From contig CM037460.1 of assembly GCA_021014325.1 (NCBI GenBank), forward strand, positions 22,974,044 to 23,038,043: a stretch of DNA of 64,000 nt, read 5' to 3'. A program made the position numbers and the translations under genes. Of the stretch, positions 1,101 to 57,010 are shown piece after piece. This DNA is from Plazaster borealis. Lineage: Eukaryota; Echinodermata; Asteroidea; Forcipulatida; Labidiasteridae. Position 1 is the first letter of the stretch. Every line of letters begins with the position of its first letter. The notes beneath the pieces are model-generated. The model had not been told where the DNA came from and searched no databases. It saw nothing but the letters and a program-made list of their open reading frames with translations.

Positions 1101-4100
1101 CTGAAACAAAAGGAAAGTTGTTTGCTTTTAACCTTGTTTCGATTAACACTTTGCCTGTCAGGTGTCTTACAGCCATCCAAACATATAATCTCAATACTTT
1201 CTTCTGTTGATCTACAAAGAGGCAGATTTTTTTAAATGAATCTTTTTGTCTGTTGGTCTATTAAATTTTCTTTATCACTTATATTTGTGTTATGTTTACC
1301 GCATTTTTTTGAGGAATTTTCTAAAATCAGGTCTGAATTCAAGACCTCTTCATGTTCAGATCCAACATTTTTCCATTCTTCTCCGATGGTACCTTTCACC
1401 ACCATAACATGAATTTGTTTATATGAATTTTCTTTATTAAACAATTATCATTCATGTTACCCAAATGGAAAGAGAAAGTTGTCGGCTTGACGAAGCTGTT
1501 TTATCTATAAACCTGCGCTGCACAGTACACTAAGTTCAGCAGGGCAATATTAACCTCAGGTGGTATACTGTTAATTGAATTTAGACAAGATAGAAGCACA
1601 AAGAAAAATTCACAGTATTTTTGCACGTTGATAGTTTTGGCAAAACAGACACTACACGATTTACTTGGCCATATAAATAGTTGAATTTAGTCAAAAAATG
1701 GGACTGACTTGAGATTACCTTTACAGTCTTACCAAAAGGTTATAAATCCACATCAATGTATTACCTTGCACAATATTTATCGTGAAACTGCATTCATTTC
1801 TGTTGTTAGCATTATCCCTGTAGGTGTATGTTACTGTGTTTCTTCCAGCTGGGAAGAAGTCATTGGGATCGTTGGTATTTGACACCAAAAAGAAGCTTCC
1901 AGAATTGTCACTGACAGTGGGGAGTTGCCAGGTAACCTGCCTTCCAGCAACACTGAATGCAACCTCAAATGTCTGGTCTTGGGGGCAAGTAACTACAGGT
2001 GGTGTTCTGTCCACTGAAACAAAAGGAAAGATGTTTGTTTTTAACCTTGTTTTGATTGTCACTTTGCCTGTCAGGTGTCTTACAGCCATCCAAACATAAA
2101 ATCTCAATTCTTTCTTCTGTTGATCTACAAAGAGGCAGATTTTTTTAAATGAATCCTTTTGTCTGTTGGTCTACTAAACTTTCTTCATCACTTATATTTG
2201 TGTTAAGTTTACCATAATTTTTTGAGGAATTTTCTAAAATCAGGTCTGAATTCAAGACCTCTTCATGTTCAGATCCAACATCTTTCCATTCTTCTCCGAT
2301 GGTACCTTTCACCACCATAACATGAATTTGTTTATAGGAATTTTTATTATTAAACAATTATCATTCATGTTACACTAATGGAAAGAGAAAGTTGTCGGTA
2401 AACCTGCGCTGCGCAGTACACTTAGGTCAGCAGGGCAATATTGACCTCAAGTGGTGTAATGTCAACTGAATTTAGACAAGATAGAAGCACAAAGAAAAGA
2501 TTTCAGTAACTTTGCACGTTGAGAGTTTTGGCAAAACAGACATGACATGATTTACTTGGCCATATGAATAGTTGAATTTCATCCAAAATTGGGACTGATT
2601 TGAGATTACCTTTACAGTCTTATAAAAAGGTTATAAATCCACAGCAATGTATTACCTTGCACAATATTTATGGTGAAACTGCATCCATTTATGTTGTTAG
2701 CAGTATCCCTGTAGGTGTATGTTACTGTGTTTGATCCAGCTGGGAAGAAGTCATTGGGATCGTTGGTATTTGACACCAAAAAGAAGCTTCCAGAATTGTC
2801 ACTGACAGTGGGAAGTTGCCAGGTAGCCTGACTTCCAGCAACACTGAATGCAACCTCAAATGTCTGGTCTTGTGGGCAAGTAACTTCAGGTGGTGTTCTG
2901 TCCACTGAAACAAAAGGAAAGTTGTTTGCTTTTAACCTTGTTTCGATTAAAACTTTGCCTGTCAGGTGTCTTACAGCCATCCAAACATAAAATCTCAATA
3001 CTTTCTTCTGTTGGTCTACAAAGAGGCAGATTTTTTTAAATGAGTCCTTTAGTCTGTTGGTCTATTAAATTTTCTTCATCACTTATATTTGTGTTATGTT
3101 TACCATATTTTTTTGAGGAGTTTTCTAAAATCAGGTGTGAATTCAAGACCTCTTCATGTTCAGATCCAACATCTTTCCATTCTTCTCCAATGGTACCTTT
3201 CACCACCATAACATGAATTTGTTTATAGGAACTTTCTTTATTAAACAATTATCATTCATGTTACACAAATGGAAAGAGAAAGTTGTCGGCTTGACGAAGC
3301 TGTTTTATCTATAAACCTGCGCTGCACAGTACACTAAGTTCAGCAGGGCAATATTAACCTCAGGTGGTATACTGTTAATTGAATTTAGACAAGATAGAAG
3401 CACAAAGAAAAATTCACAGTAATTTTGCACGTTGATAGTTTTGGCAAAACAGACATGACATGATTTACTTGGCCATATGAACAGTTGAATTTCATCCAAA
3501 ATTGGGACTGATTTAAGATTACCTTTACAGTCTTACAAAAAGGTTATAAATCCACATCAATGTATTACCTTGCACAATATTTATTGTGAAACTGCATCCA
3601 TTTATGTTGTTAGCATTATCCCTGTAGGTGTATGTTACTGTGTTTGATCCAGCTGGGAAGAAGTCATTGGGATCGTTGGTATTTGACACCAAAAAGAAGC
3701 TTCCAGAATTGTCACTGACAGTGGGGAGTTGCCAGGTAACCTGCCTTCCAGCAACACTGAATGCAACCTCAAATGTCTGGTCTTGTGGGCAAGTAACTAC
3801 AGGTGGTGTTCTGTCCACTGAAACAAAAGGAAAGATGTTTGTTTTTAACCTTGTTTTGATTGTCAGGTGTCTTACAGCCATCCAAACATAAAATCTCAAT
3901 TCTTTCTTCTGTTGATCTACAAAGAGGCAGATTTTTTTAAATGAATCCTTTTGTCTGTTGGTCTACTAAACTTTCTTCATCACTTATATTTGTGTTAAGT
4001 TTACCATAATTTTTTGAGGAATTTTCTAAAATCAGGTGTGAATTCAAGACCTCTTCATGTTCAGATCCAACATCTTTCCATTCTTCTCCGATGGTACCTT

Positions 4101-10100: not shown

Positions 10101-13100
10101 CAAACGCAAGACCTTCAGAGACTGTCACTTGCAACCACTGTACATGACATGGTTGCCCAGTAGATCTATGAATCCACCACTACGGATCTTAGTAGCCATG
10201 GGAAGGAACTTGATCAGCTTCGTCATCAATGCAACACCATCTCCAAAGACAATCATCTTCTCAGAAATGACCTTGATGATCTCGAGCAATACAGCCGTAG
10301 AAATTGTTTACTGTTACACGGAGTTTATGAATCAACCATTGGCGATGACACTGACAAACTTTTCATTGACATCATCAACAATAAGCTGAATGTGAATGTT
10401 GATCAAATTGAAGTTCTTGACCGCACACACCGAATTGACCCAGTTAAGAAGACATCAGGTTCCAATCCTACTATGCTACGCCCCATAATAGTCAAGTTCA
10501 TTAGCTACTGGACAAGATCAGCAGTTTTCAGGAAGAAGCGAATACTGAAGGGATCTGGCCTCCTGATCACTGAAAATTTGACTCGGCGACGCAACCAGCT
10601 ACTTCAAGAGGCATAACTCAGACCATCTGTAGAGAAGGCATGGACACAGGATGGTCGCATTGTCCTCCTTCTCAAGAACAAGAAAAAGGTGTCCATCTCA
10701 ACATGGAGTGAACTGGACAAGCTAAAATAGACATCTGTTAGCCTATACCTGAATGCTCCATATATGTACAATTACTGTACATTGTCTGAATCGGATATAG
10801 TCCTACATGAGTTCGCTTTCTTGTTCATTATCAATCATTTTGCAATTTATTTTGTTTCCATCATTGATTTATAATGTTCATCCCAATTTATTTGTATAAT
10901 TGAACTGTATCTTCAGCCGTTCTCCCCCTTTTTTAGTTTGTTTCCCACATTTGTGTACCTTACAACGAGTTTTAGTGTTTTTTTGTTTTGTCTCTTTTTC
11001 TTTCACTTTGTCTCCCAGAATTGCCCATGTGATTAATTTCAGATCCCTTTCTGCTGTCTTTTTTGTCTGTTAATCGAAGTAGTTTATACTTTTTGTTTCT
11101 CTTTTATTTATATATTTTGTTTTTGCTATGTTGTTCTCAGACCACAACCTCAGTTACATTCCAAATGAGCATGACTGTTATTAATCACAACTATCAGCAA
11201 ACCTAGGCAGAACCAGTCGTGGATGTCTCCAGCATTAGTGAATTCTTGTAACCACAAGAACAAACTCTATTTGTTTAGCAGTTTAGCCAAAAGAGTGATC
11301 AGTACATCATTAAACCAAAGGAGAGATTTTATGCTTAGACTTCAACTTAAACAGATCTATTCAAGTATTCTAACTCAATTATAAACAAATGTATAGTAGT
11401 AACTTCAATTTGGCAAGTGATTGTTTACTGTTACATGTATAATTATTTTGAGAAATTTTTACCCAAGTCTGGACACAAGAATTCAAAATACCTACCATTC
11501 TGGATTAGAACACCTAACTTCCCCCAAAGATGTAAAAAACCACTCGGCAGAATGAACAATCGCCACAGAGGGCATTTACACGTGTACGCTCCTAATCCAT
11601 CAAGCTCACCGGGTACTTCATACCAAATGATTCAACTGCTAAATCAACTATCAAGGTTGTTTACAAATATTACACCATTTAATGATTTGTTTAAAACCAA
11701 TACTTACCAAATGCTACAACAGTAACATCGATTCGGCATTCAGCTGTTAGTCCAGCATTATCGCCATAAATATATACAACTGTAGCTGTTTGTCCCACAA
11801 TGAACCTATCACCAGGCTGGTGTGATATCAAAATTGGAATAACTAATCCGCTGTTATCTGTAACTGTTGGTGGAACCCAAGTGACTGGTAAATCTGTGCC
11901 AGCATTAGCGGGTGCATTCACAGTAATAGGAGATGGACAGTCCGAGATGATTGGAGGATCAACATCCACTAAGGAGAAAGGTGCAAGTTTTCAATAAAGT
12001 AAGGAATTTACATCAATTTTGGAAAGATTTATCCCTTTTTAATAAACTTCAAGGGTTACAAATTCTCTCTTAGGAACATTACAGGGGGGGGGTGATCACT
12101 TTTGATCATGAATACATTTTGAGTTACTATGGCTTTTGAAGTTCACTTTATATAATTCTTACAAGGATTTACTGTAAAAAAAGAAGTAGTTTAAAGGTAT
12201 CGTACACATTTGGTAATGACTCAAAACAAATATTAGCATAACAACTTACTTGGTAACAAGCAACGGAGAGCTGTTGATAGTATAAAACATTGTAGGAAAC
12301 AACTCCCTCTGAAGTAACGTAGTTTTTGAGAAAGAGGTAATTTCTCACTAAAATAATAAAAACTTCTTGCAAGAAGTTTTTATTCCTATATCTGAAAGCA
12401 CACAAATTTATACAACAAGGGTGTTTTTTCTTTCATCATTTTCTTGCAACTTCGATGACCAATTGAGCCCAAATTTTCACAGGCTTGTTATTTTATGCAT
12501 ATGTTGGGATACACCAAGTGAGAACACTGGTCTTTGACAATTACCAAACGTGTTCAGTGCCTTCAAGCATCAATTATCACAATAAAAGCTTACCTGCTGC
12601 TGAAACAAACACTGTGAAACTGCAGCTATTCATGTTGTTGGCATTATCCCTGTAGGTGTACGTTACTATGTTACTTCCAACTAGGAAGCGGTCATTGGGA
12701 CTGTTGGTGCTTGACACCAGAAAGTAGCGTCCAGAATTGTCAGTGACAGTGGGTAGATTATAAAACACATCAATGCCAAGTGAACCAAAGGGAACCTCAA
12801 AGGAAAGGTCCTCGGAACATGTTACTACCGGTGCTTCGACGTCCACTGTAAGTTACAAAAAAGTGAATTAGAATTCACCATAATTTGTGTCATACTACAG
12901 ATTCTGTCATTTGTTCTCTAAAATAAACAAGGGTAAATCTACAAAAATTCACACACAAAAAAATCAAAATCCATAATAATCAGTGTTTAAGCAGAAAACC
13001 TGGGACAAACTTGATTTAACCCAGGAAAAAAAATTCAGAAGGAAGCAAAAGTATCCCCTTACAGTGATGGATGGTTTATATAGCGAAATACACTGTTTTC

Positions 13101-49231: not shown

Positions 49232-49586
49232 TTAAAGGTATCGTACACGTTTGGTAATGACTCGAAATAAATATTAGCATAAAAACTTACTTGGTAACAA
49301 GCAACGGAGAGCTGTTGATAGTATAAAACATTGTAGGAAACGACTCCCTCAAAAATAACGTAGTTTTTGAGAAAGAGGTAATTTCTCACTAAAATAATAA
49401 AAACTTCTTGCAAGAAGTTTTTATTCCTATCTGAAAGCACACAAATTTGTACAACAAGGGTGTTTTTTCTCACATCATTTTCTTGCAACTTCGATGACCA
49501 ATTGAGTCCAAATATTTACAGGCTTGGGATACACAAAGTGAGAACACTGGTCTTTGACAATTTCCAAACGTGTTCAGTGCCTTTAA
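49232..49586 (+). mobile_element. TTAA-type MITE, family 1, copy 9
   Basis: Both TTAA ends are intact; a short internal deletion after GGCTTG. Confidence 0.85.
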
Positions 49587-49883
49587 ACTCAATATTTTGT
49601 TTCGACAATTACCACTCATAATAGGCTTTCAACTTGAAAATACGGAGCGCAGTTATGATGTGGTAGCTATATCCATGGATGCCTATATGAAGGTTCCTAC
49701 ATAGGGTTAATGTGGTACCATTAATGAACGCACTGGTGTCTCTAAAATGATAGGACAAGCAAAGATGCTTGTAACAATGTGCAATCGTATGTTGCCAAAA
49801 CTATTACTCCATCCAGAGATTAACCCGGTTTTATAGAACTAGTTTACATTTTTGACACGTCGTCTGTAAAATAAAATTATAGT

Positions 49884-50806
49884 AAATAGGCTTGAAAAAT
49901 ACCACTGCCAAAACGATCACCCCTGACGGAGTGACCGATGTGTTCGAAATATTGGCAGGAGTTCTGCAAGGCGACACGCTGGCTCCATTTTTATTCATCA
50001 TCATGCTTGACTACGCCCTGAGACAAGCCCTCAAAGAACACGAGGAGCTAGGCTTCACCATCACCCCAAGAAAGTCTAGAGAATCGGCCCATTGACCCTC
50101 TCCGACCTAGACTTCGCAGATGATATTGCCCTACTGTCTGACAACATCATAGAAGCACAAGAGCTACTCAGCAGAGTTGAGTCGGAGTGTGAGAAGGTTG
50201 GTCTCCATCTCAATGCCAAGAAGACGGAGTACATGGCATATAACATTGGAAATCATGCTCCGCTTAAGACATTCGGAGGTGCATCACTCAAGAAGATGGA
50301 CGACTTCAAGTACCTCGGCTCCAGGATGCAGATCACTGAGAAAGACATCAATGTCCGTAAGGCGCTCGCATGGAAAGCCCTCCATGACATGAAGAAGATC
50401 TGGAGATCTCAGCTCCCCAAGGGTTTAAAACTGAGATTCTTTCATGCTACAATCGAAACCATCCTGCTGTATGGGTGCGAGTCCTGGACTCTCAACAAGG
50501 CAATGACCAAATCTCTCAACGGTTGCTACACCAGGATGCTACGGATGGCACAGAATGTCTCCTGGAGGGATCACATCACCAACCTGGAGCTTTATGGCAA
50601 CATCCCTCCACTGAGTGAGAAAGTTAAGGAGCGTCGGTTGCCCCTTGCTGGTCACTGCCTATACGACACCCAGAGCTATAGAGCCAATAAAGTCATCGTG
50701 TTGGAGCCCACCCACGGCAGGCGCGGTCCCGGAAGACCCACCAAGAATATGCTCAAGACCCTGATCGAGGATGCAGGATTAAACAACAAGGAGGAGCTAA
50801 TCAGTT
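49884..50806 (+). mobile_element. RTE-type LINE, 5' part of an interrupted copy
   Basis: A 5'-truncated reverse transcriptase: GVLQGDTLAPFLFIIMLDY, a frame break near 50090, DLDFADDIALLSD (catalytic DD), LHLNAKKTEYM, DFKYLGSRM, ILLYGCESWTL, HGRRGPGRPTKNM and KEELIS. The order and the HGRRxxGRP tail are typical of RTE elements. The frame is cut at 50806 by the DNA transposon and continues at 56914. Confidence 0.85.
50803..50806 (+). other. Target-site duplication AGTT, left copy
   Basis: AGTT here and at 56914-56917 flanks the transposon. With one AGTT kept, the LINE reads EELISCMQDRVVWR, an uninterrupted RTE C-terminus. Confidence 0.85.
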
Positions 50807-50837
50807 CGTCGCTGGTCCCACGAACTGACCTATCTCA
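50807..50837 (+). repeat. Left terminal inverted repeat
   Basis: Starts CGTCGCTGGTCCCACG and ends GACCTATCTCA; identical over 31 bases to the reverse complement of 56883-56913. Confidence 0.9.
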
Positions 50838-51026
50838 TTTTTGTCGTTTCGAGAAAAACGGGTTTAAAGTTAAGCTATTTTTGGATTGGTCATTTCCCAA
50901 GGAAATATTACTTCTTTTGGATTGATAATACTACAGCGGGAAGATTAATAGCTATAGATTCACACTGTATGGTTTAAATGCAAAAATGTCAAATATTAAG
51001 GTAAATATAAAGTGGTAAAGTTATCC

Positions 51027-51106
51027 GTCACTTCGTGAAATTATAACTTTCAGTTTTCTTACGCGCAGCGAGCAGCGTATCGCGATAGGTCACTTCGTGG
51101 GACCAG
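51027..51106 (-). repeat. Left subterminal repeats of the TIR core
   Basis: GTCACTTCGTGA at 51027-51038 and GTATCGCGATAGGTCACTTC to GGGACCAG at 51077-51106. The second is an inverted, one-base-different version of the TIR core (CTGGTCCCACGAACTGACC). Possible transposase-binding sites; inferred. Confidence 0.75.
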
Positions 51107-51403
51107 AAGTTCCATTTCTGCGCTCTGTGCCCGGCGACGTATCTGTTGTGCGCACGCGCAATACACTCTGTCTATGACACTCAATGCGTTTGTACGCGTC
51201 GATTTTGAAAATACTATCGGGGTCGGATCGGGGGGGGGGGGGTCAATGTGTGTTATAATCGGAAATGGGCATTTAGAAAAGACCACCTTATTAGACGGAA
51301 GTTTATTTGTTGCCTGTTTATTTTTCATCATGGGGAACGTCGGTTGGAAACTTCCATGGAAAATGTCATAATAGGAACTTTCACAGGGGTAATTTTGTAA
51401 TTC

Positions 51404-51995
51404 ACTGCGATTTAGTCCTTCATTGCTGTCAGTACATAATGTAATCGAATGAAAAGCCATCTATGTCTGTTTTAAGTTAACAATAACTTTTATTCATACA
51501 ATTAATTTAACAATTCATTCATTATAAAAATTCATTTAATTCAATGTACAAGTAATTCCAAAATTCTTCCATTGTAAATATTCACTTTAAAATTAACAAA
51601 ACACTTTGGTTTCATCCCGCTTTCACAATGATCTACTCTGGTATACATATTTCTTGTAAACATTATTTTGGACAATTAAGCACCATTTAAACCCACAAAT
51701 ACTGCGATTTAGTCCTTCATTGCTGTCAGTACGTAATGTAATAAAATGAAAAGCCATCTATGTCTGTTTTAAGTTAACAATAAATTTTATTCATACAATT
51801 AATTTAACAATTAATTCATTATAAAAATTCATTTAATTCAATGTACAAGTAATTACAAAATTCATCCATTGTAAATATTCATTTTAAAATTAACAAAACA
51901 CTTTGGTTTCATCCGCTTTCACAATGATCTACTCTAGTACACATATTTCTTGTAAACATTATTTTGGACAATAAAGCACCATTTAAACCCACAAA
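51404..51995. repeat. Two tandem 297-bp copies
   Basis: 51404-51700 and 51701-51995 are nearly identical (ACTGCGATTTAGTCCTTC to CACCATTTAAACCCACAAA). They lie inside the transposon, downstream of the transposase stop codon, and would fall in or near its 3' untranslated region. Confidence 0.9.
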
Positions 51996-52027
51996 GATCC
52001 TCAGAAAGATTGATTAGGAAAACCTGA

Positions 52028-54131
52028 TCAATGCGGAAGGTCTCTGTAGAATGCAACGTGATCGGGATGACTAATCACCGGAGTTGGGCCTTGACACAGA
52101 CTCATCAAGTCGTTGTACTTGCTCTCTGCAAGTTTAGGAGGGCTTCTAGGATAGGCAGGTGGAGGGTAATTCAGTTGGCCAATTGCTGTGAGCCTTGAGC
52201 TACCCTCGATGTCAATAGTGTCAAACGTTTCTTGGAGGTGCGAGAGTTTTACCATGATTTTAAGAGGTTTGCATTTTGTGACCTTAACTTGCATTACCCT
52301 TTTCCAGTCTACTGGATTACCTTCGACTGTTGACCGTACCTTTAGAATATGCAAGGACTGCCCGAATTCTTTCCAGTCATGGATGTCCCCTGTTTGCACT
52401 TCTGTTACATGATAGTTAGTAGGGTGTTTCCTAGATGTTCTGATGAGGATAGAGAGTTGGGAAGGGAGAAATACATCCCCCGCGCTGGACACTTGGCGCT
52501 CGATTGTACTATGAACGGAATCCCCTTCACTTTGACCATGGTTGGTCTCAAAAAATTACAAAGTTACCTCTTTCACTGTTTTAGATTGGGATACAAAGTA
52601 GGTCAGCATGGCCGGTAAAATTGAGTTCTTGTTTTGTCCCACGCAGCCGTCGCTAAAAAGATCAACGGTATCCTTTCCTTGGTTGTCCAGTGTTTGCAAA
52701 TACGTGTATAAATTGGACGCTATTTCGTTCGCACCGCGCTTCGCGATGCCCTCATGGTGGAGGAAGCAGAATCCATCCTTGCTACCTAATTCGTAGATAG
52801 TGAAATCGTAACATGAAAGCCTACGTTTGTAGAACAGCGTCCCTCTCTCCGATCGTGGCAAGTATATGACTTGCTGGAGGTCAAATACTGAGGCCTGGTA
52901 CGATTTGGGATTCATGAGTGCTTGTTTTTTCTTGTCCGCTTTTATTTCTCGTACTTTGTTTTTTTCATTCGTGTGACTCATGTATTGCACACTGATTCTT
53001 TCTTTTTCTTTATCATCCCCTTTGTGATACGTCTCGCAAATTCCACACTGATCCTTTTTGGGCTTGTGGAACTTTAATTTCATGTCATTCAACACCCTTG
53101 CATACAACGTTCTAGAAGCTTTTAGGTTTGGGTTTTCTGCAATGTACAGATCGTACATTTTGTTCACATTGAGATCAGAAGCCAAGTATTGGAAAGATGT
53201 GCTAGAGCGGCAGTAATGTGATTCAGCTCTAGGAAACCTGTTGATGTGAGCCTTGACCTCTTCTCTAAGATGTTTATCTTTCTCCTTTGTTTGCCTCCCT
53301 CCCCTTTGCTCTTGTGCAAGTGTGTTACACGGTCCAAGTTTTTTTACGACAGTACGTACCTGACGATCTGATATTCCTACTGTACTGAGAAACATTTTTT
53401 TACAAACCCGAAAGGGAGATGACATTATGCCTTCATCTTTAGGTAGGAAAAAATGAGTGTTCCTCTTCTTGCGTGAACTACCTTTACATGGCTCTGAAAC
53501 AATGTGATGTGCCACCCACTCTCTCTGTCCTTGCAGGCTACCAACTGAATAGAAAGCATTTCTTATTGATTCTCTTTGTTCTTTACTGAACTCATCACAC
53601 TCAAGTTTTCTGGCCTTGCACCATAAGCCGTTACATGTTGGTATCATTTGAGTTTTTCGTGCCGCCTTTAACCTGTCTGACTTTTCCGAATGGTAGGCAT
53701 CTCCACTGTTTCGTTTTTCTTTTACGGTTTTATTCTTGGCTTGTTTTGATTGGATTTCAGGGGAATCCCGTTCAAAATCCATCTCTATCTGTGGTTCTCC
53801 TTCCACAATAAAGTTCTCTGGTTGCAGAGGAACTGTGATATTTGCACTGGATGAAGCTGACTTTAAGTTATGTTCGATATTAACAACTGGAGTTGACACA
53901 TTGCTTAAATTAAGTAGTGCAGAAAATGTATTGTGAGACTCACAAGTATTGCTGGACCTTAAAAATGTTCAAAGCATAACAGACAGTCACAATTACTGCA
54001 AGCTGCAAAGATGTCCTCCTGACAAGTAAAATCTGAGCACTTCTGGACCACACCCTGTTGTGGAAATAGCGCTTCTTCGAGGTCAGGGGGGATTGTTGTT
54101 GTTTGAGATTCCGATATTGATGGGTTTGAGC
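52028..54131 (-). CDS. Transposase exon 6 (catalytic exon)
   Basis: Acceptor CACTGCAG, phase 1 entry as a Cys codon. Carries the Cys-rich segment, basic linker and D-D-E-like core. Correcting nothing, the frame is open 54131-53959, shifted to 53957-52559, and after TAA open again 52555-52031, the same frame as the preceding stretch. After the core comes a C-terminal ~130-residue part (QTGDIHDWKEFGQSL, PAYPRSPPKLAESKYNDLM) typical of the same protein type. Confidence 0.8.
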
Positions 54132-54424
54132 CTGCAGTGTGAGAAAAGAATAGATCAGTGACGTAGCTCATGTGTGTGTGGGGGTGGGGGGTCATATATT
54201 AGTACAAGACTTTCCCCAAAGAAGCCCATATTTCCGGAAATGAGAGACTGTATTTCCCCCAAGTTTAAAGATTAGATTTCCGATATACTCTCAAAGTGAA
54301 ATCCCAAATTTCAGAATACAGCCCAAATTTCTGAAATGTCAACCATAGTTAACGTTCAAATAAACAAATTTCTTTCATAATTATTTTGCTTTTAGCAGAA
54401 ACAATAAAACAAGGTATTTCTTAC

Positions 54425-54538
54425 AGGAATTGTTGGTCAGTTGGGATTCAAGCTCTTGTGGTGTTGTGTCCAATGCAGTAATGTCCAAAGTTGCATTCTC
54501 CTCGGGAATGCTGCTGATGCCCGAGTCACCCTCATAGA
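54425..54538 (-). CDS. Transposase exon 5 (duplicate of exon 3)
   Basis: 114 nt, 38 codons, acceptor GTTTCAG, donor GTAAGA, phase 1-1. Reads YEGDSGISSIPEENATLD, then a diverged end. Flanking introns also match those of exon 3. Confidence 0.75.
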
Positions 54539-54804
54539 CTGAAACAGAATAATGCAATAATGGTTTAATGTGGAGAAAGAAAACAACTTAATCCTACATT
54601 TTACATTACACCTGAAAATAAAGAACTATTGTTCGAATAAAAGACCCTTTCTATACACAAATTGAGAAGTAACACTAGACTTAGTGAGGAATCTGGATAT
54701 ATGCACGCTCAGTTGCAACATTAAAAAAAAAAAAAAAAAACATAACAGAATACTGTAATAAAGACCACATAATATTGATGATTAGGTATAACAGTAAAAC
54801 TTAC

Positions 54805-54873
54805 TCTCTGCTGCATGGCCTAGTAATGTGCTAAGAGGCATGTCGTCTTCACCACTATCCCTGTCCTCAGTTC
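54805..54873 (-). CDS. Transposase exon 4 (duplicate of exon 2)
   Basis: 69 nt, 23 codons, acceptor TCTACAG, donor GTAAGT, phase 1-1. Reads TEDRDSGEDDMPLSTLLGHA; one codon longer than exon 2. Confidence 0.75.
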
Positions 54874-54977
54874 CTGTAGAATTAATCCAAAAACCATGGA
54901 CTGATTATTGAAACAAATTTCATATACTTTGTGCTTTCAAACATAAAGTAGCAGGAACAAGTTAATCCAGAACTTAC

Positions 54978-55139
54978 TCTCTCCTGCATTCTTTTCTTGG
55001 GATTCAGCAGTTGTGTCCAATGTTGTTTGGTGTCCAATGTCTGGTGAGGTGTCTTGTGGTGTGGTGTCCAATGCAGAAACGTCCAATGTTGCATTCTCCT
55101 CGGGAATGCTGCTGATGCCCCCCGAGTCACCCTCATAGA
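54978..55139 (-). CDS. Transposase exon 3
   Basis: 162 nt, 54 codons, acceptor GTTTCAG, donor GTAAGT, phase 1-1. Reads YEGDSGGISSIPEENATLD, then a Thr/Asp-rich stretch. Acidic, probably disordered. Confidence 0.75.
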
Positions 55140-55271
55140 CTGAAACAGAATAATGCAATAATGGTTTAATGTGGAGAAAGAAAACAACTTAATCCTACAT
55201 TTTACATTACACCTGAAAATAAAGAACCATTGTTCGAATAAAAGATGATTAGGTATAAGAGTAAAACTCAC

Positions 55272-55337
55272 TCTCTGCTGCATGGTCTAGTAATGCGCTA
55301 AGAGGCATGTCGTCTTCACTATCACTGTCCTCAGTTT
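55272..55337 (-). CDS. Transposase exon 2
   Basis: 66 nt, 22 codons, acceptor TTTACAG, donor GTGAGT, phase 1-1. Reads ETEDSDSEDDMPLSALLDHA, strongly acidic. Confidence 0.75.
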
Positions 55338-55467
55338 CTGTAAAATGCAAGAAAACAACAGTCTGATTAATGAAACAAATTACATGTAGTTTGTGCTTTC
55401 AAAAATACTGTAGCAGGAAGAACTCTGAAATAATGCAAAATGTAAACAGACACTGACAAGAGCTTAC

Positions 55468-55652
55468 CTCCAGTGTCCTCCATGTTTATCACTGTTCCCT
55501 TCCACCATGCTCTCCCCCACCTCATCTTAACTGTCTGGTAAAGTTTCAATGGGGGATGAAATTTCAGGTGTTCAGATAGCACAACATTTCGACTCCTATC
55601 AGCCCACCTCACTAAAACATCCATTGCTAGCTCAGCCGGGTTGAGTCCAAGG
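55468..55652 (-). CDS. Transposase exon 1 (first coding exon)
   Basis: Acceptor CCACAG at its 5' side, donor GAG|GTAAGC, phase 1 exit. ATG at 55624-55622 reads MDVLVRWADRSRNVV, then VKMRWGRAWWKGTVI, which resembles a small Tudor/chromo-like beta fold. The upstream exon may be the short stretch ending at 56377 (CAT|GTGAGT), but its ATG frame does not join, so it is probably untranslated. Confidence 0.65.
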
Positions 55653-56658
55653 CTGTGGTAAAAACAAACTTTAAAAAGTTAACAAGTAGGCTTGTCACTC
55701 TTTATGTCTTAGTCCTAAAAAACATTAAGTTATTTTATAATTTCACATTGCAGGATGACTGTTTAACACTTTCCAGACTGTTTGTGCTGCAGTAATTCAA
55801 TGGAAAATTACTTTCACTTCCCAGCCGGATAATCCCATGAATTGTGAAAATTAACCAGTAAATAGCCTTAACAATCATAGACTATATCAATTTTTGTATC
55901 AACAACATGGAACATTCCTAAGTTAAGTTGTTTGTAGTGAGTTTTAAAAATTTAATATTTATCATTTAGCCTGCATTATGAATATGAGCCATCTTGACAA
56001 ATTTCTGCCAAAACGACATCATCAGTAACTTCATGACCGAGGCTACAAAGTACAATTGACATCGGTAATATTGTTATACTATCTACAGGCGTTTGTCACA
56101 CGATAGCATGAATAAAATTACAGTACACTAACAAGACTAAACACTATTACTAGGCCAAGCCAAGGTCAAGGTCGGACAAGGCCAGTAAAGTTTAAACTCT
56201 CTTTCAATATCCACCACCCGCCGCCATCCCATACACATGGCCCGACCAAATCTAAGCGTTGATTTGTCAAATAAGCCATCCGATTTTATAGTATTTATCA
56301 TAATTAGGTTAAATAACGAAACGTTAACGTAACGTTAACACAGTTTAAGTTATATTTTGATTGAAAATATACTCACATGATAACCCGCCATGTCGTTGTT
56401 AACTTGGACAGCTCCCATTCCACACATACACAATGTTAGTGTGCATTACGTTCAAATACCAGACCCGCGTCCTCCATAGAAATAGTATTTTATATGATTT
56501 TGTTTGATTCATTCACAAAAATACAGGTTACAAGGTTTTATTTGCAGCAGCACAACTCATGATACGTAATTTTAACAATATATTTATAAAAAATGATCTT
56601 AAAAAAAAAAAAAAAATACGGCTCTTGAAAAAGAATAATTATGTAAATATTCATGTAA

Positions 56659-56732
56659 GTCACTTCGTGAACTGCGCGTAACAGGGCAGTCTGATCCCAC
56701 GAAGTGACCTATCGTGATACGTCACTTTGTGA
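56659..56732 (+). repeat. Right subterminal repeats of the TIR core
   Basis: GTCACTTCGTGA at 56659-56670, GATCCCACGAAGTGACCTAT at 56693-56712 and GTCACTTTGTGA at 56721-56732. The middle one pairs inverted with 51077-51103 and with the right TIR. Confidence 0.75.
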
Positions 56733-56882
56733 GCCCCAAATTATCATTATTGACAATGCGTCGCTTTTGTTTACTACTGTAAACAACAATTTGAGATAAG
56801 GTTTCGTCCCAAAATTTTGAAAAAAAATTAAGACTTCACTTTTGTAATCCAAATATATAAAAAACTAATTTTCGCCAAAAAG

Positions 56883-56913
56883 TGAGATAGGTCAGTTCGT
56901 GGGACCAGCGACG
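56883..56913 (-). repeat. Right terminal inverted repeat
   Basis: Ends GGGACCAGCGACG; perfect reverse complement of 50807-50837. Confidence 0.9.
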
Positions 56914-57010
56914 AGTTGTATGCAGGATAGAGTTGTGTGGCGTGTCAGACTTCGAGCCCGACTCAAACATGCGGCAAAGCGACAACTTGGGTCGAATGAG
57001 TGAATGAAGT
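56914..57010 (+). mobile_element. RTE-type LINE, 3' end of the interrupted copy
   Basis: Starts with the second AGTT. Joined to 50806 it encodes SCMQDRVVWRVRLRARLKHA and stops at TGA near 56998, then a GAATGAGTGAATGAAG tail typical of RTE 3' ends. Confidence 0.8.

Follow-up and report, generated by a model that had tools for sequence, protein, structure and literature searches.

A Sola-like transposon nested in a sea star LINE points to a probable DDD transposase core in the DUF7869 family

Introduction

What interrupts a long interspersed nuclear element (LINE) at positions 50807-56913 of a 64,000-nt stretch of the genome of the sea star Plazaster borealis (contig CM037460.1; hereafter, the window), and which protein could have moved it there? 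The interrupting sequence is a 6107-bp transposon carrying a gene on the minus strand, the last exon of which matches DUF7869 (PF25273). In our view, it is probably a cut-and-paste transposon of a Sola-like type moved by its own DUF7869 protein, which would act as a DDD transposase (with three catalytic aspartates) and produce a 4-bp stagger; we put the probability of this reading at around 0.85. Pfam lists DUF7869 as a domain of unknown function; in the present case, the ends and the target site duplication of the element that carries it are both defined. What this work mainly adds is that DUF7869 can be assigned as a putative DDD transposase core with insertion-sequence-like bacterial relatives, in which the same three acids and a similar 4-bp target are found, and a domain without a function may in this way become a testable transposase with known ends and stagger.

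Borders of the Element and Its Genomic Copies

The insertion into a LINE makes the borders of the element unambiguous. On the left, the 3′ part of the LINE reading frame (50080-50802, plus strand; reverse transcriptase, Pfam RVT_1, E 3.5e-8) continues into the tetranucleotide AGTT at 50803-50806, which is itself part of the frame. Flank comparison places a second AGTT at 56914-56917 on the right, followed by the end of the LINE frame at 56918-57003. When the element and one AGTT are removed, the frame runs EELIS-CMQDRVVWR to a stop at 57001-57003, and an alignment of the joined protein with P0157 (source name, Asterias amurensis) spans 266 columns (79% identity) and crosses the junction ungapped. 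At the level of the predicted proteins, this alignment is a related empty site. The LINE has 1035 relatives, and among the best 120, P0157 is at the top, with Patiria miniata (58%), a brittle star, and an eel among the further named sources. Read inward, either end of the element gives CGTCGCTGGTCCCACGAACTGACCTATCTCA, which consists of 31 perfect bases, one mismatch, and four matches. The terminal inverted repeats thus occupy 50807-50837 (plus strand) and 56883-56913 (minus strand). The sequence-only reading of this locus, in which the LINE is a putative RTE element, had proposed the perfect 31-bp repeats, the AGTT on both sides, and the closure of the LINE frame, and all of these proved correct, the repeats to the base.

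That reading had also taken the target size to be 4 bp, on which other copies of the element have a bearing. We searched the assembly (561 Mb in 717 contigs) with both element ends as queries (all counts given here are lower bounds), and the left-end and right-end searches led to the same copies, at least six in number: two on contig C6 (0.6 Mb apart), two on C7 (0.1 Mb apart), one on C18, and one on the small contig C493. All six have the same borders and the perfect 31-bp inverted repeat, the left repeat being identical in every copy, and five are flanked by perfect 4-bp duplications, which in element orientation are AGTT, AAGT, AATT, ATAT, and TTCT. At the base composition of the window, matching flanks in at least five of six copies would be expected by chance with a probability of about 2e-11, and the 4-bp target size holds beyond the single site from which it was read. 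Apart from the six copies, the end searches hit only two short stretches, of 43 bp on C4 and 44 bp on C20, and the C4 stretch has no end motif at up to four mismatches.

The copies differ from one another by only 0.11-0.53% (mean 0.355%, 15 pairs), which indicates a young family and suggests very recent movement. The close pairs on C6 and C7 would fit short-range hopping, although they are too few for such a claim, and a single insertion together with a rearrangement may account for the two copies on C7.

The DUF7869 Core

If the borders define the element, the nature of its protein has to be sought in the last exon. Read through its stop, this exon matches DUF7869 with 31.5 bits (cut-off, 26) and no other Pfam domain at cut-off, while the 470-aa frame before the stop has no Pfam match when taken alone. 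NCBIfam gave nothing above cut-off, and a search of the sequences of solved structures gave no matches. Named hits place relatives with DUF7869 in molluscs, insects, echinoderms, and other animals. Two DUF7869-like relatives, P0033 and P0144, carry a precomputed Pfam label, PF04236, which we take to be the Tc5 transposase C-terminal domain.

Across the DUF7869 alignment, three aspartates are conserved, D363, D440, and D483 in the numbering of P0121, in the arrangement D-76-D-42-D. The first spacing is 76 in 42 of 50 eukaryotic rows of the alignment and the second is 42 in 41 of 50. Two glutamates were considered as the third catalytic acid and rejected: E490 is conserved in no more than 49 of 89 rows, and E481 is replaced by S or G in all six aligned bacterial relatives, which makes D483 the more likely candidate. 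RNase HI has a four-acid D-E-D-D active site, and in DUF7869, E406 is close to invariant: 89 of 92 rows have E at this position, as do all 57 rows once bacteria are added to the alignment.

The predicted core has an RNase H-type fold like that of integrases and transposases, retroviral integrases, Mos1, and SETMAR among them, with 7-14% identity in the aligned parts. Conservation and this predicted fold, on which the assignment is based, fit a DDD transposase core. The sequence-only reading had described the core as D-D-E-like and had named a match to a family other than transposases as a sign against it. The predicted fold resembles integrases and transposases. The third acid is probably D, so that D-D-D describes the core better than D-D-E.

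Bacterial Relatives

Additional support comes from bacteria. In one scan of a set of genome contigs, 311 pattern matches led to eight loci encoding a relative: two in Thiomargarita nelsonii, four in Deltaproteobacteria and Desulfobacterales, one in Legionellales, and one in a Nitrospirales bin. Six of the eight proteins were aligned, leaving out those of L016, where the frame is split in two, and L018, where it is 542 aa long and lies near the contig start. All six proteins tested match DUF7869 with 52.9-88.9 bits. The six aligned proteins retain D363, E406, D440, and D483, with spacings of 78 and 41 throughout. One bacterial protein has a weak match to ISAzo13 (14.5 bits; cut-off, 26.9).

Inverted repeats were found at six of the eight loci; L018 and L023 have none in the flanks searched, which reached up to 700 bp. 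Three of the six loci with repeats have perfect 4-bp duplications, AAAT/AAAT (L019), AATT/AATT (L022), and ATTT/ATTT (L016), all three of the form AWWT, and the form A..T is found in all 12 bacterial flanks. The bacterial DUF7869 loci resemble insertion sequences. The pattern search of viral contigs gave 71 matches and no relatives, and plasmid records had no match to three protein queries. Beside the bacterial DUF7869 genes, other transposase-like frames, of the IS630 and ISL3 types by eye, are located at 1888-2823 of L018 and 2308-3627 (minus strand) of L023.

Classification Within Sola or Outside It

Descriptions of Sola elements give 4-bp duplications, a DDD transposase, lengths that mostly lie between 2 and 9 kb, inverted repeats from 11 to 1124 bp long, and a distribution that covers bacteria and animals (PMC10741241). 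The present element agrees with this superfamily in its 4-bp duplication, its putative DDD core, its 6107 bp, its 31-bp repeats, and the bacteria-to-animal range of its relatives (PMC10741241, PMC4455052). From this agreement of features, and not from sequence comparison with Sola transposases, we regard membership in Sola, perhaps as a Sola2-like element, as likely. We use Sola-like as a working name for what is probably a Sola element, without filing it as a proven member. The earlier proposal of a Sola-like or unnamed cut-and-paste family is accordingly well supported by the shared borders, the 4-bp duplications of five of the six copies, the integrase-like predicted core, and the match by description.

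The Sola2 elements of social amoebae have 4-bp, AT-rich duplications of the form AWWT (ATAT, AAAT, and ATTT; PMC3627910), which closely resemble the duplications at the bacterial DUF7869 loci, while two of the five host duplications fit this form. Their inverted repeats are 12-13 or 21 bp long, in contrast to the 31 bp found here, and some of them carry Fanzor1 (PMC3627910), whereas the open reading frames of the present element include no second long gene. Sola has precedents in marine invertebrates, as a survey of bivalves reports both Sola1 and Sola2 elements (PMC10294476).

Alternatively, the transposons with DUF7869 might constitute a separate superfamily that does not belong to Sola, has a D-E-D-D active site, and is sister to an unclassified family of bacterial insertion sequences. 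The near-invariance of E406 would suit such a site, the libraries searched give the family no name beyond DUF7869, and the links between prokaryotic and eukaryotic transposons treated in the excerpts of PMC10045372 include neither Sola nor the DUF7869 family. Nevertheless, every Sola feature that can be tested fits, Sola is reported from bacteria as well (PMC10741241), and position 406 is Q in three of 92 rows. We therefore consider a separate superfamily unlikely, and the three Q rows lower slightly further the odds of its full version, an unrecognized superfamily reaching from bacteria to animals, outside Sola, with a D-E-D-D site, A..T tetramers, and a 4-bp stagger. A full-text search of one open-access collection found no paper on DUF7869, searches for PF25273, the motif, or a Sola2 transposase returned only papers with unrelated titles, and Sola in combination with sea stars led to a single sea cucumber preprint; the family may already be in Repbase under Sola.

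Other superfamilies with duplications of about 4 bp, namely, piggyBac, Kolobok, Academ, and IS481EU, would be allowed by the duplication length alone (PMC5199201, PMC10045372). However, none of the five duplications is TTAA, and piggyBac and Kolobok were rejected on this ground. Moreover, the element ends start with C, whereas Kolobok termini start with RR according to the excerpted descriptions, and the read-through last exon has no Pfam domain at cut-off besides DUF7869. There is hardly any room left for this explanation. Zator, with a 3-bp duplication (PMC10045372), was likewise rejected in view of the 4-bp duplications in five of six copies, and mariner elements differ from ours in duplicating TA (PMC5199201).

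Proposed Mechanism and the Evidence Against It

Transposition of this Sola-like element might proceed as follows. The DUF7869 protein would be produced from the spliced minus-strand gene and would bind the 31-bp ends and probably also inverted copies of the end motif located inside them. A helix-turn-helix-like part of the protein could be responsible for this binding, as suggested by weak matches to PaaX and HTH_29 in the relative P0020, both under cut-off. The RNase H-type site formed by D363, D440, and D483 would then excise the element, perhaps with the assistance of the nearly invariant E406. Strand transfer would link the ends to phosphates of the target that are separated by 4 bp, in most cases within an A..T tetramer, and repair of the resulting gaps would yield the 4-bp duplication. 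We infer that this DUF7869 protein, or one nearly identical to it, moved the six copies.

Several observations weigh against this interpretation. The first concerns the target sites, as one of the five host duplications (TTCT) departs from the A..T form of the other four and only two (AATT and ATAT) fit AWWT. Furthermore, the borders of the bacterial elements were set by eye at a G-rich start, and three of the six bacterial flank pairs are one base off a perfect duplication: ATAT/ATTT (L020), ATAT/ATTT (L021), and ATAT/ATGT (L017). As for the fold, Foldseek alone found no match in the PDB at E ≤ 0.001; the IstA transposase was at the top (E 0.0017), with the NurA and herpesvirus terminase nucleases just behind. 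Among viral models, the only match at that threshold was a phage viroplasmin-type protein, and the next rows include RNase H, MutS, terminase, and RuvC. The three Q rows at position 406 belong to the same side of the balance.

So does the sixth copy (L013, on C7), which has unequal flanks, TTCT and ATAT, as well as a 1031-bp internal deletion; no other shortened derivative was present among the hits of both end searches. Together with the element, 335 bp on one side of it are common to L013 and its neighbor on C7, L014, at 98.8%, beyond which the two diverge (bases 1-335 of L024 and L025). These unequal flanks and the common 335 bp would fit recombination between two copies as the origin of L013, which is likely a hybrid or otherwise rearranged copy. 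Recombination does not explain its second, far junction, and the ATAT is not directly at the junction.

A further difficulty is the state of the gene, as the last coding exon is interrupted in every one of the six copies as assembled. The copy in the window is disrupted by an in-frame stop at 52556-52558, absent from the other five, and by a frame break near 53962, while each of the other five has interruptions of its own. Where the 646-aa last frame lies, the longest open stretches across the six copies are 470, 612, 294, 326, 473, and 236 aa. Relatives such as P0002 and P0020 have an uninterrupted frame. It follows that some copy moved in trans or before it was damaged, and it could be proposed that the DUF7869 protein is a passenger on an element moved by a transposase from elsewhere. 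Against this, nearly identical copies carry different interruptions, so that the damage apparently came after their spread or reflects assembly error, and the insertions and deletions in the gene may be either decay or such error. In addition, the protein is predicted to fold like an integrase, its conserved acids fall where such a fold would require them, and full-length DUF7869 frames in bacteria sit between inverted repeats. We find the passenger explanation very improbable and retain the DUF7869 protein as the putative transposase.

Gene Structure and Other Features of the Window

For the gene on the minus strand, the model predicts about six coding exons, from the first at 55624-55468 to the last at 54131-52028. 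The first begins MDVLVRW, in likeness to the N-termini of the relatives P0020, P0047, and P0122. It is followed in the exon model by four short exons with GT/AG borders and lengths that are multiples of three, at 55272-55337, 54978-55139, 54805-54873, and 54425-54538, of which the last two are a duplicate of the two upstream of them. Across 54425-55337, this exon pair and the surrounding introns are duplicated at a distance of about 460-600 bp, and an acidic stretch of the DSEDDMPLS type is repeated. The last exon opens with a Cys/His-rich stretch (53962-54131), the frame of which differs in the window copy from that of the long final frame with the DUF7869 core (52028-53968).

Repeat comparison also showed that the end motif recurs in inverted orientation within the element, some 280 bp from the left border (51084-51106, plus strand; GATAGGTCACTTCGTGGGACCAG), where it may be a transposase binding site, and some 200 bp from the right one (56691-56713, minus strand). 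It further identified a tandem duplication with a 297-bp period at 51404-51995. Outside the element, a repeat at 49232-49590 recurs over about 280-380 bp, at 86-94% identity, at eight more places in the window (near 12191, 21892, 25448 on the minus strand, 29799, 35458, 37737, 38737, and 42225), and these further occurrences mark it as an abundant, unclassified interspersed repeat.

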